From J088 sp003695505 [NCBI: Candidatus Dadabacteria bacterium] (GTDB lineage Bacteria > J088), in NCBI GenBank assembly GCA_003695505.1, contig RFIY01000384.1, positions 1 to 5,624 of the forward strand: a stretch of 5,624 bases of DNA. The letters are read 5' to 3'. The notes beneath the pieces are model-generated. The model worked only from the letters and a program-made list of their open reading frames with translations, was not told the DNA's origin and did not search any database. A program made the position numbers and the translations under genes. Below are positions 1-5,624 of the stretch, piece by piece (the first letter of the stretch is position 1; every line of letters starts with the position of its first letter).

Positions 1-1490
1 CGGAGCTGGCCGGCCTGCCGCCGACCGCACTGGCCGCGGCGCGGGACGCCGCGGCACGCGCCGGCGTCGAGGGGTACAGACTGACGCTCGATGCGCCGAG
101 CTACATCGCGGTCATGACCTACGCCGACAACCGCGAGCTGCGCGAGACGATGTGGCGGGCGCAAACGCGGCTGGCGGCCGATGAACCGTGGGACAATCGC
201 CCATTGATCGAGGAGATCATTGCATTGCGCCAGGAGAAGGCACGGATGCTCGGTTATACCCACTTTGCCGACTACGTCACAGAGGAGCGGATGGCCGGGA
301 ATGCGGATCGGGTTCGCCGGTTTCTCGCCGATCTCGAGACACGCACCCGGCCCGCGTTCGAGCGCGAAGTTGCGGAACTGCGTGCCTTTGCGGCGGAACG
401 CGGCTGCGCTGAACTGCAACCCTGGGATGTCGCGTGGTACAGCGAGAAGCTGCGACGCGAGCGCTACGATGTCGACGAAGAAGCGCTGCGGCCATGGTTT
501 TCGCTCGATGGTGTGCTTGAAGGCATGTTCGCGATCGTCGACCGTGTCTTTGGCGTGCGCGTCGAAGAAGTTCCCCAGGGATCATCCGGTTTCCCGGAAG
601 TCTGGCACCCGGATGTGCGCTACTTCCGGGTGTTCGATGGCGACAGCGAAGTCGGTGCGTTCTATGCCGATTTCTTCCCTCGCCCCGACAAGCGCGGTGG
701 TGCGTGGATGAATGCCTTTATTACCGGCGGCCCGCGCGAAGACGGCGGCTTCGATCCGCACGTTGGCCTCCTTTGCGCCAACATCACACCGCCGGCTGGC
801 GATCAGCCCGCCCTGCTGACCCATCGCGAGGTCGAAACGGTTTTTCACGAGTTCGGCCACCTGTTGCATCATCTGCTCAGCCGCGTCCCCGTTCACTCCC
901 TTGCGGGCACGAACGTCCCGTGGGACTTCGTCGAGCTGCCCAGCCAGTTGATGGAAAACTGGACCTGGCAAAAGCCGGCCCTGGAGCTGTTCGCAAGACA
1001 CTGGCAGAGCGGCGAGCCACTGCCGGACGACCTGCTTGAACCGATGTTGCGCGCGCGGACGTTTCAGGCGGCGATGCAGATGATGCGCCAGCTCAGCTTC
1101 GGCACGATGGATCTGTGGCTGCACACCGAATACCGGCCCGGCGAAGACGACGTCCTTGCTGGCTGCCGCGCCGTACAGGAGCGGTTTTCGATCACGCCGT
1201 TGCCCGATGACTACGCGATGGTTTGCGCGTTTACGCATCTGTTTGCCGGCCCGGTGGCCTATGCGGCCGGATACTACTCGTACAAGTGGGCGGAAGTGCT
1301 GGATGCCGATGTCTTTTCGGCGTTCGAACAGCACGGCATTTTCGACCGCGGCTTCGGCCGCCGCTATGTCGACACGATCCTCGCGCGTGGGCACAGCGCC
1401 GATCCGATGGAGCTCTACGTCGAGCTGCTGGGCCGCGAACCCGATCCGGATGCGCTGCTACGGCGCGACGGTCTGCTGCCGACGGCATAA
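1..1490 (+). CDS. prlC: Oligopeptidase A, M3-family zinc metallopeptidase (5'-truncated)
   Basis: Cytosolic zinc oligopeptidase that cleaves short peptides, including signal-peptide fragments. The reading frame is open from base 3, so the ATG at 114 is internal: the 37 residues before it run straight into the family-typical MTYADNRELRE. The visible part is 495 residues; family members are about 680, so roughly 180 N-terminal residues lie upstream. Zinc site: HEFGH at visible residues 282-286 (846-860), with the third ligand Glu311 in DFVELPSQ, 25 residues after the second His, as expected for M3. The C-terminal substrate-binding block is present, with His412 and YAAGYYSYKW from residue 420, followed by the usual GREPDPDALLRRDGLL end. 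The loop before that block reads FAGPVAY, longer than the FAGGY I recall for relatives. It converges on merR with 9 nt between stops. I am confident of the family; OpdA rather than another M3 subfamily is likely from the C-terminus. Confidence 0.95.
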   Translation, partial: ELAGLPPTALAAARDAAARAGVEGYRLTLDAPSYIAVMTYADNRELRETMWRAQTRLAADEPWDNRPLIEEIIALRQEKARMLGYTHFADYVTEERMAGNADRVRRFLADLETRTRPAFEREVAELRAFAAERGCAELQPWDVAWYSEKLRRERYDVDEEALRPWFSLDGVLEGMFAIVDRVFGVRVEEVPQGSSGFPEVWHPDVRYFRVFDGDSEVGAFYADFFPRPDKRGGAWMNAFITGGPREDGGFDPHVGLLCANITPPAGDQPALLTHREVETVFHEFGHLLHHLLSRVPVHSLAGTNVPWDFVELPSQLMENWTWQKPALELFARHWQSGEPLPDDLLEPMLRARTFQAAMQMMRQLSFGTMDLWLHTEYRPGEDDVLAGCRAVQERFSITPLPDDYAMVCAFTHLFAGPVAYAAGYYSYKWAEVLDADVFSAFEQHGIFDRGFGRRYVDTILARGHSADPMELYVELLGREPDPDALLRRDGLLPTA

Positions 1491-2516: not shown

Positions 2517-3167
2517 ATGTACCAACAGGTTAACTCAGCTTCGGCGCGGGACACGGCACCGGCAGGGATCTATGTGCTGTTCGATCCCGCGACAAAACCG
2601 GAATGGCTGACGGTTTTGCGCGGTCTGGCAGATGTCGGCGTGCGCTGGTTTCAGTTGCGCACCAAACGCGCCACGTCGCTTCTTCGGCAGGATCTGCTGC
2701 GCCAGGCGCGCGGCGCGCTACCGGCCGGCACGGTATTGATCTGCAACGATGACATCACCGCCGCCGCATCATGCGACGGCGTCCACCTGGGACCGGACGA
2801 TGCCGAACCGGCCAGCGCGCGAGAGCGCCTTGGCACATCGGCCTGGATCGGCGCCAGTTGCGACGACCCGACACGCGCCAACGCGCCCGAGTTCGCGGCC
2901 GTCGATTATTTTGGTGTCGGGACCTGGCGGCGGACGGCAACCAAGCCTGACGCGGGCACGCCGATCACGCCCGACATTCTGCGCGCCTTCGTCAGCGCGG
3001 CGCAGCGGCCTGTCTTTGCCATTGGCGGCATCCGCATCGACGATCTGCCGACCATCGCGGCCACGGGCGCAGCCGGTGTCGCCATCGCCAGTGCAGTCTG
3101 GGACGCCCCGGATCCGGTCGCGGCGGCAAGGCGCTTTGTCGAACGCTGGCAGGAGGTAGCGGCTTGA
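2517..3167 (+). CDS. thiE: Thiamine-phosphate synthase
   Basis: Couples HMP pyrophosphate with the thiazole phosphate to make thiamine phosphate in the cytosol. It is 216 residues, normal for this TIM-barrel family. Family landmarks in order: QLRTK (46-50, with the Arg and Lys of the active site), CNDD (76-79, the Asn-Asp pair), DGVHLGPDD (87-95), IGAS (111-114), DYFGVGTWRRTATK (130-143, phosphate-contacting Thr and Lys) and AIGGI (168-172). Small departures are HLGPDD for the common HLGQxD and IGASCDD for IGVST. All expected active-site positions I can place are occupied. The ATG at 2517 is chosen because no other start precedes the first barrel strand (GIYVLFD, 17-23); no Shine-Dalgarno sequence is visible before it, so initiation may be weak or near-leaderless. 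Its stop overlaps the thiD start. Confidence 0.93.
   Translation: MYQQVNSASARDTAPAGIYVLFDPATKPEWLTVLRGLADVGVRWFQLRTKRATSLLRQDLLRQARGALPAGTVLICNDDITAAASCDGVHLGPDDAEPASARERLGTSAWIGASCDDPTRANAPEFAAVDYFGVGTWRRTATKPDAGTPITPDILRAFVSAAQRPVFAIGGIRIDDLPTIAATGAAGVAIASAVWDAPDPVAAARRFVERWQEVAA
3151..3157 (+). promoter_or_regulatory. Ribosome binding site of thiD
   Basis: AGGAGGT, a near-perfect Shine-Dalgarno sequence inside the end of thiE, 6 nt before a TTG codon. It supports TTG at 3164 as the true thiD start and offsets the weak start codon. Confidence 0.8.
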
Positions 3168-3946
3168 CGGCAGCGCTGTCGATCGCGGCCGTCGACCCGT
3201 CCGCGGCCGCCGGATTGCTGCTGGACGTCCAGGTCTTTGCCAGTTCCGGTCTGCACGGACAAGGTGTCGTGACGGCACTGACGGCGCAAGCTCCCGGCCG
3301 GGCACGCTGTCTCGCGGTGACCCGTCCGACGGACATCGTCGCGCAGCTCGAGGCGGCGCTGGATACATGGGCGCCATCCGCCGCGAAAACGGGTCTGATC
3401 ATCAGTGTCGAGCAGGCAGGCGCGATCACCCGCGTCTGGCAACACGCCAATCGTCCACTCGTCGTCGACCCCGTGGACGTGCTCAGTTCGGGGTTCGACC
3501 TGGCAACCGATCCGCTGCCGGCCCGTGTCGAAGCGCTCGCGCCCGTGATGACGCTGCTGACCCCAAATCTCGACGAAGCCCATCGGCTGCTGGAGCTGGA
3601 GAGCACTGCAGCGGACCGCGCGACCCGGGAAGCGCTCGCATGGGCCCTCGCGGAACGTTATCACTGCGCCATCTTGCTGAAAGGCGGGCACGTCGACGGT
3701 GCGGATGTGCTGGTTCACGGTTCGACCCTGCGATGGTTCGAGCCGGCATCCGGACCTGCACCGTTTTCACTCCGCGGCAGCGGTTGCCGTCTGAGCGCGG
3801 CGATCACCGCGCAGCTTGCCAGGGGCGCGGACATTCAGACCGCCGTGATGACCGCGAGACAGTTGGTGGCGGCAGCCCTGGATCAGGCGCAGCAGCGCGG
3901 CGGACAATGGCTCGCGCCCGGCAACCTCTCGCCCGGCGATCGCTAG
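3164..3946 (+). CDS. thiD: Hydroxymethylpyrimidine / phosphomethylpyrimidine kinase (divergent ThiD)
   Basis: A ribokinase-fold kinase of 260 residues, normal for ThiD, which phosphorylates HMP and HMP-P to supply ThiE. The start is TTG at 3164, overlapping the thiE TGA by 4 nt and preceded by AGGAGGT; the first strand ALSIAAVDPS follows at the expected distance. Landmarks: VVTALTAQ (35-42), AAKTG (73-77), VVDPV (100-104), TPNLDEA (133-139), LLKGGH (171-176) and the anion-hole motif RGSGC (204-208), whose Cys208 is kept. Several normally strict motifs have drifted: IAAVDPSAAAG for IAGSDPSGGAG, DPVDV for DPVMV, and RGSGC for HGTGC. The protein is likely still a kinase because the Lys, Asp, Asn, Glu and Cys positions survive. 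It may have altered substrate preference, for example acting only on HMP-P, but this is inference. Confidence 0.85.
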   Translation: MTAALSIAAVDPSAAAGLLLDVQVFASSGLHGQGVVTALTAQAPGRARCLAVTRPTDIVAQLEAALDTWAPSAAKTGLIISVEQAGAITRVWQHANRPLVVDPVDVLSSGFDLATDPLPARVEALAPVMTLLTPNLDEAHRLLELESTAADRATREALAWALAERYHCAILLKGGHVDGADVLVHGSTLRWFEPASGPAPFSLRGSGCRLSAAITAQLARGADIQTAVMTARQLVAAALDQAQQRGGQWLAPGNLSPGDR

Positions 3947-3953
3947 CACGAGG

Positions 3954-3973
3954 GCGGCGTCTGCGCGCGCCGC
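3954..3973 (+). other. GC-rich hairpin after thiD
   Basis: GCGGCG (3954-3959) pairs with CGCCGC (3968-3973) around an 8-nt loop, starting 8 nt after the thiD stop. The position suits a transcript 3' end, but no T-tract follows, so it is at best a stabilising or factor-assisted terminator hairpin. Confidence 0.35.
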
Positions 3974-4008
3974 GTAGCCGAAAGCCTCGCATCCGGACAG
4001 GGGTCCTT

Positions 4009-4023
4009 CGCCTGTTCCAGGCG
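4009..4023 (+). repeat. Small perfect hairpin CGCCTG-TTC-CAGGCG
   Basis: A 6-bp perfect stem with a 3-nt loop, overlapping the outer end of the left 31-nt arm. A 4-bp stem, GGAC/GTCC (3995-4006), lies just before it. The right arm does not keep this stem, because it has CGTGGAACAGCA at the matching place. The hairpin is therefore specific to the left copy. Confidence 0.5.
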
Positions 4024-4042
4024 TGTTGCCGGTCGCAGGGTC
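4012..4042 (+). repeat. Left arm of 31-nt inverted repeat
   Basis: Begins CTGTTCCAGGCGTGTTGCC and ends GGTC. Its reverse complement matches 4186-4216 at 29 of 31 positions. Similarity continues inward as GAAAAT here against AAAAT in the other copy, with one inserted base. Confidence 0.85.
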
Positions 4043-4185
4043 GAAAATTGGGCGCCTCTGACGCCTGATTCGGCGTAGCGAAGTTCGGTGCTGCCGTCAC
4101 TGTGGTGTCCGCGCGGCGCGATATCTTCCTCTCTGGCACGGGTCCCATCATGCGAGGTCGTTGGGGATGCGGGGCGCGGCATTTT

Positions 4186-4216
4186 GACCTTGCGACCGGC
4201 AACACGCGTGGAACAG
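4186..4216 (-). repeat. Right arm of 31-nt inverted repeat
   Basis: Inverted copy of 4012-4042, starting GACCTTGCGACCGGCAACAC and ending GGAACAG. It differs at two positions (T for C at the fifth, G for C at the twenty-third). The arms are separated by 143 nt. Such a match by chance in a 375-nt region is very unlikely. Confidence 0.85.
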
Positions 4217-4262
4217 CACCCTCCAGTACGAAGCCGGGCAGCCTGTTGGCGGCCTGTCGGGC

Positions 4263-4268
4263 TACAAT
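4263..4268 (+). promoter_or_regulatory. Possible -10 box upstream of dctQ
   Basis: TACAAT matches the sigma-70 -10 consensus at 5 of 6 bases and lies 53 nt before the dctQ start. No convincing -35 is present at 16-18 nt; TTGGCG (4246-4251) is too close at 11 nt. If real, it would need an activator or be weak. Confidence 0.35.
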
Positions 4269-4308
4269 GTCTGTGGCGCAAAATTCCCAACACGACTTAT
4301 CCGGGCAT

Positions 4309-4312
4309 GGAG
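4309..4312 (+). promoter_or_regulatory. Ribosome binding site of dctQ
   Basis: GGAG 9 nt before the ATG at 4322. An in-frame ATG at 4307 overlaps this site, so 4322 is the better start. Confidence 0.6.
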
Positions 4313-4321
4313 ATATTTCCG

Positions 4322-4888
4322 ATGACCTCGCGAATCAAGCGGTGGATCGACATCGTCGACAGGGTCAACGGCTGGGCGGGCAACGTCGTCAGCCTGGGCG
4401 CCGTGCTGCTGGTCGTGCTGGTCTGCGCCAACGTGCTGCTGCGCTACGCGCTCGATCACAGCATTCTTGCGTTGCAGGATCTGAGCTGGTACATCTTTGG
4501 CGCGATGATCTTTCTCGGCGCCGCCGAAACCTTCCGGCATGACCGCCACGTCCGTGTCGACGTGCTCTACAGTCACTGGCCGATCCGCCGTCGACTATGG
4601 GTCGACCTTTTTGGCATCGCCTTTCTGCTGATCCCATTCTGCATTCTGGTCATCGCCATGTCACTGGATTTCGTTTCGGCGTCGTGGATGATCGGTGAAG
4701 GCTCACCCGATCCCGGCGGCCTCGGCATGCGCTACATACCAAAGGCCTTTATCCCGGCTGGTTTTTTGCTGCTGCTGTTGCAGGCATTTGCGGAGCTGGG
4801 ACGGCGCGTCCTGATGCTGCGTGGCGACCTGCCGCTGCCCGACGACGCCCACAGCGATGATGAAGAGGAGCTGCCGTGGCCGGGCTGA
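4322..4888 (+). CDS. dctQ: TRAP transporter small membrane subunit (DctQ family)
   Basis: Small four-helix inner-membrane subunit of a tripartite ATP-independent (TRAP) transporter, which imports an organic substrate using an ion gradient and an extracytoplasmic binding protein. It is 188 residues from ATG 4322. Predicted helices are at about 20-40 (VSLGAVLLVVLVCANVLL), 52-69, 93-115 and 138-160. Family signatures are NVLLRYAL after helix 1, LSWYIFGAMIFLGAAE in helix 2, RHVRVDVLY in the loop, and GSPDPGGLGMRYIPKAFIPAG before helix 4. The last motif is typical of the subgroup often labelled mannitol/chloroaromatic-type, a label that does not establish substrate. The C-terminal tail is strongly acidic (DDAHSDDEEE), and its codons also supply the dctM ribosome binding site. 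An upstream frame extension to 4088 is rejected because it runs through the repeat region. Confidence 0.92.
   Translation: MTSRIKRWIDIVDRVNGWAGNVVSLGAVLLVVLVCANVLLRYALDHSILALQDLSWYIFGAMIFLGAAETFRHDRHVRVDVLYSHWPIRRRLWVDLFGIAFLLIPFCILVIAMSLDFVSASWMIGEGSPDPGGLGMRYIPKAFIPAGFLLLLLQAFAELGRRVLMLRGDLPLPDDAHSDDEEELPWPG
4865..4870 (+). promoter_or_regulatory. Ribosome binding site of dctM
   Basis: GAGGAG inside the acidic C-terminal codons of dctQ, 5 nt before GTG at 4876. It supports that GTG as the dctM start. Confidence 0.75.
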
Positions 4889-5624
4889 TTCTGTTTCTGG
4901 TCGTCCTGGTCGCGCTGGTCGCGGGTTTTCCGGTCGCCTTCACGCTCGGTGGCGTATCGACGCTGTACGGCCTGGCGACGTTTGGTCTCGATTTTTTCCA
5001 CTTCCTGCCGCTGCGCATCTGGGGCATCGTCACCAACCAGTTGCTGCTGGCCGTGCCATTGTTCGTATTTATGGGCGTGATGCTCGAAAAATCGGGGCTG
5101 GCCGAAGAGCTGCTCGAAACCATGGCGCTACTGTTCGGGCGCATTCGCGGCGGACTGGCGATATCGGTCGTGGTTGTCGGTGGCCTGCTGGCCGCATCGA
5201 CAGGCATCGTTGGCGCGACGGTCGTGACGATGGGCCTGCTGAGTCTGCCGACGATGTTGCGCCGCAACTATGATCCCAGGCTCGCGACCGGAACGATCGC
5301 GGCGGCAGGCACGCTCGGCCAGATCATTCCGCCGAGTATCGTGCTGATCCTGCTCGGATCGGTCATGAATGTATCTGTCGGCGACATGTTCATGGGCGCC
5401 GTCATCCCCGGACTGGCGCTGGTACTGCTCTACCTTGGCTGGATCGTTGTCGTCGCAATCGTTCGCCCCGACGCGGCGCCGGCTATGCCTGCCGACGAAG
5501 TGGCCGCGTTTCTGAAGGATGGGGCGATCCGGCGCCTGATCCGCGCCCTGCTTGCGCCACTGGCGCTGATTGTCGCCGTACTTGGCTCGATTTTTGCCGG
5601 CATCGCATCGCCCACCGAGGCCGC
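4876..5624 (+). CDS. dctM: TRAP transporter large membrane subunit (DctM family), 3'-truncated
   Basis: The large multi-helix permease of the TRAP system and the main transport subunit. The frame starts at GTG 4876 (MAGLILFLVVLVALVAGFPVA, a typical DctM first helix) and stays open to the window end, giving 249 residues of a family usually above 420. Recognisable blocks: GFPVAFTLGG (17-26), AVPLFVFMGVMLEKSG (about 59-74), the conserved ASTGIVGATVVTMGLL segment (about 108-123), AAAGTLGQIIPPSIVLILLG near 142-161, and GIASPTEA ending at residue 249, which marks the midpoint of the usual protein. It overlaps dctQ by 13 nt, so the two are almost certainly co-translated. The periplasmic binding subunit DctP is not upstream of dctQ and must lie downstream or elsewhere. 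Substrate cannot be read from this sequence. Confidence 0.93.
   Translation, partial: MAGLILFLVVLVALVAGFPVAFTLGGVSTLYGLATFGLDFFHFLPLRIWGIVTNQLLLAVPLFVFMGVMLEKSGLAEELLETMALLFGRIRGGLAISVVVVGGLLAASTGIVGATVVTMGLLSLPTMLRRNYDPRLATGTIAAAGTLGQIIPPSIVLILLGSVMNVSVGDMFMGAVIPGLALVLLYLGWIVVVAIVRPDAAPAMPADEVAAFLKDGAIRRLIRALLAPLALIVAVLGSIFAGIASPTEA

Follow-up and report, generated by a model that had tools for sequence, protein, structure and literature searches.

Between a thiD-like gene and dctQ on one contig of a Candidatus Dadabacteria genome stand two 31-nt sequences that are reverse complements of each other, and they raise the question of what such a pair is and what keeps its two halves complementary. 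The contig, analysed over its whole length of 5,624 nt and hereafter called the window (C98), belongs to a fragmented assembly (2.83 Mb in 395 contigs, completeness 84.5%; G000). A preliminary description, made from the letters of the window, had offered two readings of the pair: one long stem, or two dispersed REP-like units set in opposite orientation.

Recomputing the arms at 4012-4042 and 4186-4216, we obtained the same figures as that description, with 29 of 31 bases reverse-complementary and 143 nt between them, and none of 200 shuffles of the whole window held two matches for the arms. Without gaps the match extends to 35 nt with three mismatches (91%) and a gap of 135 nt, and BLAST against the genome itself lengthens it to 45/44 nt at 87%. 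The top inverted-repeat score in the 375-nt intergenic stretch was 26, compared with a mean of 8.4 and a maximum of 14 in 2000 dinucleotide shuffles, none of which reached 26. A local accident is ruled out by these shuffles together with three further copies of the hairpin, and an assembly artefact seems unlikely because the arms hold mismatches and four different copies exist.

The hairpin lies within the 375-nt stretch from the end of thiD (3946) to the start of dctQ (4322), and it was rightly noted that no gene accounts for it. GC content per codon position is flat in this stretch, at 0.63-0.65 over the three forward frames, whereas the eight genes of the window show GC1 of 0.63-0.74, GC2 of 0.40-0.58 and GC3 of 0.72-0.79; the stretch looks non-coding. 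A coding remnant is unlikely because of this flat profile and because neither of the two antisense ORFs tried had a Pfam match. Downstream, dctQM (4322-5622) lies directly behind thiED without a dctP upstream, and the contig stops inside dctM, so that a dctP may yet follow downstream.

Judged by its letters, the repeat stands alone. A search of the whole assembly with the 31-mer at up to three mismatches recovered only the two window arms; plasmids, phages and IMG/VR held no match to the window element (the IMG/VR queries being the arm core and, separately, the box pair described below), and no Rfam family matched within it up to E 1. A parent element with the same repeats was likewise not found: the assembly, 84.5% complete, matched the window arm at no other place, although a diverged parent would escape such a search. 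Matches to the interior in three of 398 genomes (G824, G278 and G811) fall inside unrelated ORFs, with about 0.4 expected, and were taken as chance, and those in G084 and G060 are confined to window positions 3930-3977, the end of thiD and the stretch behind it. An initial search for inverted repeats in 23 further loci of the host genome (210,762 nt) yielded no repeat scoring 18 or more. Searching by letters alone, we would have labelled the window repeat a local accident.

This impression of uniqueness was overturned by a second batch of 20 contigs, 18 of them chosen for carrying weak BLAST matches, which contained a second hairpin (C236). Its left arm ends in GAATTGGGCGCC, the window counterpart being AAATTGGGCGCC, and it had earlier appeared by BLAST only at E 3.2, so nearly do letter searches miss the sister copies. 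Two more (C117 and C109) turned up in a later batch of 60 contigs (365,612 nt), 56 of which had been picked by number alone while the other four (C342, C159, C37 and C31) had figured in earlier results. The genome holds at least four hairpins of the same plan, all outside predicted genes (Table 1); they measure 205-231 bp, their outer stems being about 33-37 bp long and their boxes 114-139 nt apart. The proposal of a dispersed family is thus backed by three further hairpins on other contigs. The preliminary description had also held that a unit occurring only here, with arms not conserved in relatives, would be a local accident: for the letters the unit does occur only here, but for the structure it does not, given the three sister hairpins. 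Rfam searches of the three sister loci gave a single match within an element, MIR918 on C236 (42.3 bits against a gathering threshold of 268, E 1.8e-4), which we read as a long-hairpin look-alike, and no family scored above its curated threshold for any of the four copies.

Table 1. Coordinates of the window hairpin, its flanking genes and its sister copies. Positions refer to the window unless a locus is named.
Feature	Position	Strand	Evidence or remark
thiD-like gene	3164-3946	+	Pfam Phos_pyr_kin; upstream of hairpin, co-directional with hairpin polarity
Left arm (5' side, outer stem)	4012-4046	+	35 nt, 91% complementary to 4182-4216; covariation
Left inner box AATTGGGCGCC	4046-4056	+	identical in all four copies; four-copy alignment, motif scans
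Interior, 114 nt	4057-4170	+	no clear likeness to the three other interiors; no excess folding
Right inner box GGGGCGCGGCATT	4171-4183	+	four-copy alignment
Right arm (3' side, outer stem)	4182-4216	+	complementarity to left arm; covariation
dctQ	4322-4888	+	Pfam DctQ; downstream of hairpin, co-directional
Copy C236	L229 4333-4563, arms 4333-4377 / 4519-4563, gap 141	+	inverted-repeat scan
Copy C117	L316 426-646, arms 426-468 / 604-646	-	two-sequence profile, E 3.1e-5
Copy C109	L308 376-594	-	motif scan with box

The survey by structure and box covered 100 other contigs (791,489 nt), which with the window make up about 28% of the assembly; the remaining 72% or so was covered by letter searches only, which nearly miss the sister copies. 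Further copies were sought with BLAST and profiles, box motif and inverted-repeat scans. Inverted repeats scoring at least 16 with gaps of 20-350 nt numbered only seven in the 100 contigs, and three of the seven are members of the hairpin family, with gaps of 135, 137 and 141 nt (135 in the window); two of the remaining four resemble terminal repeats of a Y1 transposase gene (L309 and L223) and two are others (L219 and L313). When the box (at most two mismatches) was combined with a stem score of at least 14, only these four hairpins were picked out of 108 sources from the host genome (815,403 nt with some overlap), scoring 20-25.5 in one or both polarities, and 176 loci from other genomes (2,163,330 nt) contributed a single match, at 14.5. 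The two copies in the 60-contig batch correspond very roughly to some 15 per assembly, with wide uncertainty, and identical copies could drop out of a fragmented assembly. The evidence base is four copies from one genome, and the family is so far known from this host only.

What the copies share lies inside the element and not at its tips. The similarity just inside the arms that had been pointed out at the start (AAAAT, GCGCC) proved to be the conserved part, the inner boxes: all four copies carry AATTGGGCGCC on the left and GGGGCGCnnnATT on the right, the right box reading GGGGCGC, three variable bases and ATT across the four-copy alignment. The inner helix has five pairs, is invariant and is paired in 100% of alignment cells (in the window, GGCGC at 4173-4177 pairs with GCGCC at 4052-4056), and an internal loop parts it from the outer stem. 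From copy to copy, only 13-22 of 33 positions of the outer arms agree.

The outer arms nonetheless pair within each copy. In the four-copy alignment 95.4% of 151 cells are paired, compared with 76.0 +/- 2.8 in shuffles, and both sides have changed in 23 of 38 pairs, compared with 9.0 +/- 2.3; none of 500 shuffles attained the observed pairing or the observed number of double changes. The three-copy alignment behaves alike, with 97.5% of its 122 cells paired and double changes in 19 of 41 pairs, values that none of 500 shuffles reached. Sliding the 3' side of the four-copy alignment by one to three columns lowers pairing to 34-45%, a control that is biased in favour of the stem because the structure was read from the same sequences, aligned by MAFFT without structure. 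In part of the stem the window row of this alignment is shifted by one base, leaving 27 Watson-Crick pairs and one G.U of 33; walked directly, the window stem has 32 Watson-Crick pairs and two G.U of 35. By the test applied to structured RNAs, then, stem covariation stands above both shuffled and slid controls (in four copies from one genome), and of the two original readings it is the one long stem that covariation backs. Four stems that have lost their shared letters and yet pair within every copy suggest that the hairpin is being preserved in some way: arms without maintenance should diverge within a copy as they do between copies, and since they have not, either selection on the fold or arm-to-arm correction is indicated.

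The few departures from Watson-Crick pairing give a slight hint of the molecule concerned. Ungapped and in the polarity of the family, the stem mismatches comprise six G.U and one A.C (G.U/A.C 2/0 in the window, C236 and C117, 0/1 in C109), an excess that is not significant (two-sided binomial 0.125) and that becomes five to two when counted on the columns of the four-copy alignment. The window has in addition one G.G, and C236 a T.C and a G.G at the internal loop. Such a bias may lean towards RNA over DNA, short of significance.

The interiors, by length 114, 139, 133 and 137 nt between the boxes, are largely unalike. Six pairwise comparisons on both strands, with 500 mononucleotide shuffles each, fell within chance in 9 of 12 cases; the other three were the window against C236 (25/500 and 16/500 on the two strands) and against reversed C109 (4/500). 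We did not treat these three as homology because opposite strands are implicated; some residual similarity may be present, and the interiors may not have diverged completely. On their own the interiors show no excess folding in either polarity of the four copies (z -0.45 to 1.57; window interior, 4047-4181, 1.57 on the plus and -0.03 on the minus strand, the other three -0.45 to 0.73). Whole elements in the polarity of the family fold well beyond shuffles (z -5.4 for the window, -8.9 for C236 and -7.7 for C117), and the window element with short flanks gives z -5.1 on the minus strand. Folding energy clearly favours the polarity of the box in the window (-127 vs. -111.2 kcal/mol) and in C236 (-152.4 vs. 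-137); the preference is only slight in C109 (-145.2 vs. -143.2) and in C117 (-129.9 vs. -128.1), where the opposite polarity has the slightly stronger z (-8.2 vs. -7.7).

This polarity agrees with at least one adjoining gene or ORF at all four sites. Both window neighbours, thiD and dctQ, run in the direction of the hairpin. The C236 copy has a DUF819 gene upstream in the same direction and a convergent gene downstream; at C117 the neighbours diverge, one being a MaoC-domain gene and the other an ORF without a Pfam match, which lies 40 nt downstream and shares the direction of the hairpin; and C109 has an enoyl-CoA hydratase-family gene on one side and, on the other, an ORF truncated by the contig end that weakly matches alpha/beta-hydrolases, both in its own direction. 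Neighbours so varied mean that no single cis-regulatory role fits all sites, which speaks against a cis-regulator of one pathway; despite this variety, the hairpin may have a general role at the transcript level.

We give about an even chance to the reading that the window feature is one copy of a dispersed intergenic hairpin family in which compensatory change maintains the stem and which probably acts as a transcribed hairpin. In each copy an internal loop separates the outer stem (about 33-37 bp) from the invariant box with its 5-bp helix, and the 114-139 nt inside the boxes vary freely. The copies are probably old, because their interiors no longer clearly align, and the stem would then have been maintained while its letters changed. 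A function is favoured because the box is invariant and polarised and the gap range is narrow. The stem would most likely be kept because selection acts on the hairpin as transcribed RNA, with its polarity fixed. The hairpin would lie within read-through or leader transcripts of an adjoining gene, here between thiED and dctQM, and would act as a long duplex, such as a stabilising site or one processed by RNase III; dispersal presumably came about through an older transposition-like process. RNA function, mobility and processing are all properties that we infer for the family. More tentatively, it may represent an undescribed class of long-hairpin RNA, dispersed, with a stem selected as RNA and a fixed loop box, each copy providing a double-stranded site for processing or protein binding in neighbouring transcripts while its stem letters and interior drift, a possibility that we hold short of probable. 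No description of such a family was found in the literature searched, a search that was not exhaustive.

By analogy, the family would work most like Correia-type elements, whose copies are recognisable through letter similarity. In Neisseria these MITEs are described as 204 bp long, with terminal inverted repeats at which RNase III cuts transcripts (PMC10969869, PMC2649163). Size is similar and both have terminal inverted repeats, but in the hairpin family the arms share few letters (those 13-22 of 33 positions), only the inner box is invariant and the tips are unconserved, and cutting by RNase III would be carried over from the Correia case.

A classic MITE, that is, a deleted insertion sequence with terminal repeats cut in trans by a DDE transposase, is an unlikely alternative to a transcribed hairpin. 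Paired terminal repeats, a length of 205-231 bp (under the 300 bp or so usual for MITEs) and several copies spread between genes of one genome all agree with it, as do the size and arm length of MITEPsy2 of Pseudomonas syringae, reported as 228 nt with 26-nt imperfect inverted repeats, two copies and Tn3-family-like ends (PMC3189936). However, terminal tips are not shared: at the outermost bases, the expected cutting point of a transposase, each of the four copies has its own sequence (CTGTTCC, TACACCC, CGCGCCT and GGACCGC), and the conserved part is internal. Nor is a direct repeat evident at the tips, a scan of the window copy for target duplications (4-12 nt, offsets up to 4) giving a single 5-nt match with one mismatch, at an offset, and inspection by eye showing none beside the other three, although old copies may have lost them. 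Letter searches of the assembly revealed no second copy of the window arm, although a fragmented assembly may lose identical copies, and, unlike for MITEPsy2, no parent element.

An alternative that we consider unlikely is a folded single-stranded DNA site read by its structure, like attC sites and REPs, the stem letters drifting while fold and box are kept. A variable stem with a small conserved box and a fixed polarity would suit recognition by structure, and the assembly has four matches to the tyrosine recombinase family as well as two Y1 transposase genes. Sites of the attC type are shorter, with conserved boxes placed where the stem ends on its outer side. They are reported to keep a fold with strand polarity rather than letters and, without sequence conservation, to be recombined as folded bottom strands (PMC2727003). 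The hairpin family too keeps its fold over its letters, but its four copies stand singly between ordinary genes and not in cassette-like arrays, and the arms are absent from the stretches upstream of either Y1 gene, the 3' sides being cut by contig ends.

The Y1 genes also bear on the REP-like units of the preliminary description, which had linked them to a RAYT transposase. REP/REPIN and TIRtron units are reported often to lie close together in opposite orientation, with some Y1 transposase genes placed within long terminal inverted repeats (PMC3733652), and with its two Y1 genes the host genome offers a similar setting. Unlike REPs, however, the hairpin arms match the upstream flank of neither gene, show no GTAG/CGTC tag (GTAG was not seen at the base of the stem) and were not found singly: at up to three mismatches the window arm is confined to a single locus of the assembly, with two arms only, and the left arm by itself folds weakly (z -1.54), whereas a REP unit of 20-40 nt is palindromic in itself and occurs in many copies. 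Outside the family, BLAST of the window and C236 elements against the 100 contigs gave only short, weak matches. The idea of two REP-like units is not supported for the window repeat, and the RAYT link is negative for the upstream sides of the two genes; the idea has a counterpart in a different repeat family of the same genome (L309).

That counterpart includes a 31-nt sequence of the AATTGAAAGCTG type upstream of one Y1 (IS200-like) transposase gene (L161, on C159), a perfect 30-bp inverted pair around 173 nt (L309 9898-10130, on C110), 31 nt of which match the L161 flank at 90%, and a perfect 29-bp pair (L223 16083-16341, on C169) with 84% identity to L309 over 38 nt. From their sequences, the three are possibly members of a miniature element family mobilised by a TIRYT. 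Upstream of the second Y1 gene (L160, on C342) is GGGGTCAG on the minus strand, which by eye fits GGGGWSAS, a motif reported for TIRtron repeats (PMC3733652).

Quite improbable, in our judgement, is the correction of a quasi-palindrome by templated repair at the replication fork, which would keep the arms complementary with no function involved. It would make the arms change together just as selection on a transcribed hairpin would, and would leave few mismatches, as seen here. Yet it leaves unexplained why the box is invariant and polarised and why the gaps keep to the narrow range of 135-141 nt, and templated palindrome correction acts mainly on short, closely spaced palindromes. An inverton, an invertible promoter segment controlling dctQM, is highly improbable: the inverted arms around 143 nt upstream of a transporter gene are of the kind by which inverted-repeat scans have located candidates elsewhere (PMC11892184), but no sigma-70-like promoter, nor a terminator, was found in 3900-4400, and the C236 copy has no downstream gene in its own direction.

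Dispersed bacterial repeats have mostly been found through letter similarity, and by that test the hairpin looks like a one-off. One survey of stem-loop sequences describes repeated families with a predicted fold, mostly intergenic, 67 of 92 of them new (PMC2267715); these were found by sequence clustering and HMMs, whereas the copies described here are nearly invisible to letter searches. Still, compensatory change is strong across the four found in roughly 28% of one assembly. Should this prove general, inverted repeats that pass as unique in bacteria may in some cases be members of families held together by structure only. A stem that outlives its own letters poses the question of whether selection on RNA, recognition of a DNA fold or templated correction is at work.

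The host is probably an isolated lineage, to go by sequence comparisons. No close relative was present among the 97 other genomes examined, all related at domain level only, and an order-level search returned the host genome alone. Against 369 genomes of the class, ThiD reached at most 39% identity among the matches listed, and RecA, with 103 of the 369 passing E 1e-150, stood at 67-71% in those 103; the best DctQ match listed was 48%. Neither thiD nor thiE stood beside dctQ at any of 30 DctQ loci at E 1e-5, and IMG/VR held no match for the DctQ relatives. One of the other genomes (G355) has, directly upstream of dctQ, a 184-bp element with perfect 22-bp inverted arms (L198 1234-1417), similar in architecture to the window hairpin and unrelated to it in letters. 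A 400-kb sample of G355 contains partial matches to this element; the other loci examined, plasmids and IMG/VR contain none.

Two further observations concern the host genome. The M3 peptidase at window positions 3-1490 is nearest to Acidobacteria and a few others (53-56%), and gammaproteobacterial matches are lower (at most 51%), both among the best 80 loci; given IHF-like and MerR neighbours that point to a proteobacterium, it is possible that the gene was transferred. Elsewhere, on C74, two inverted pairs of the CCCTCCTTCGC...GGAGGG type lie inside 650 nt (L219 3059-3707) and form a separate repeat.
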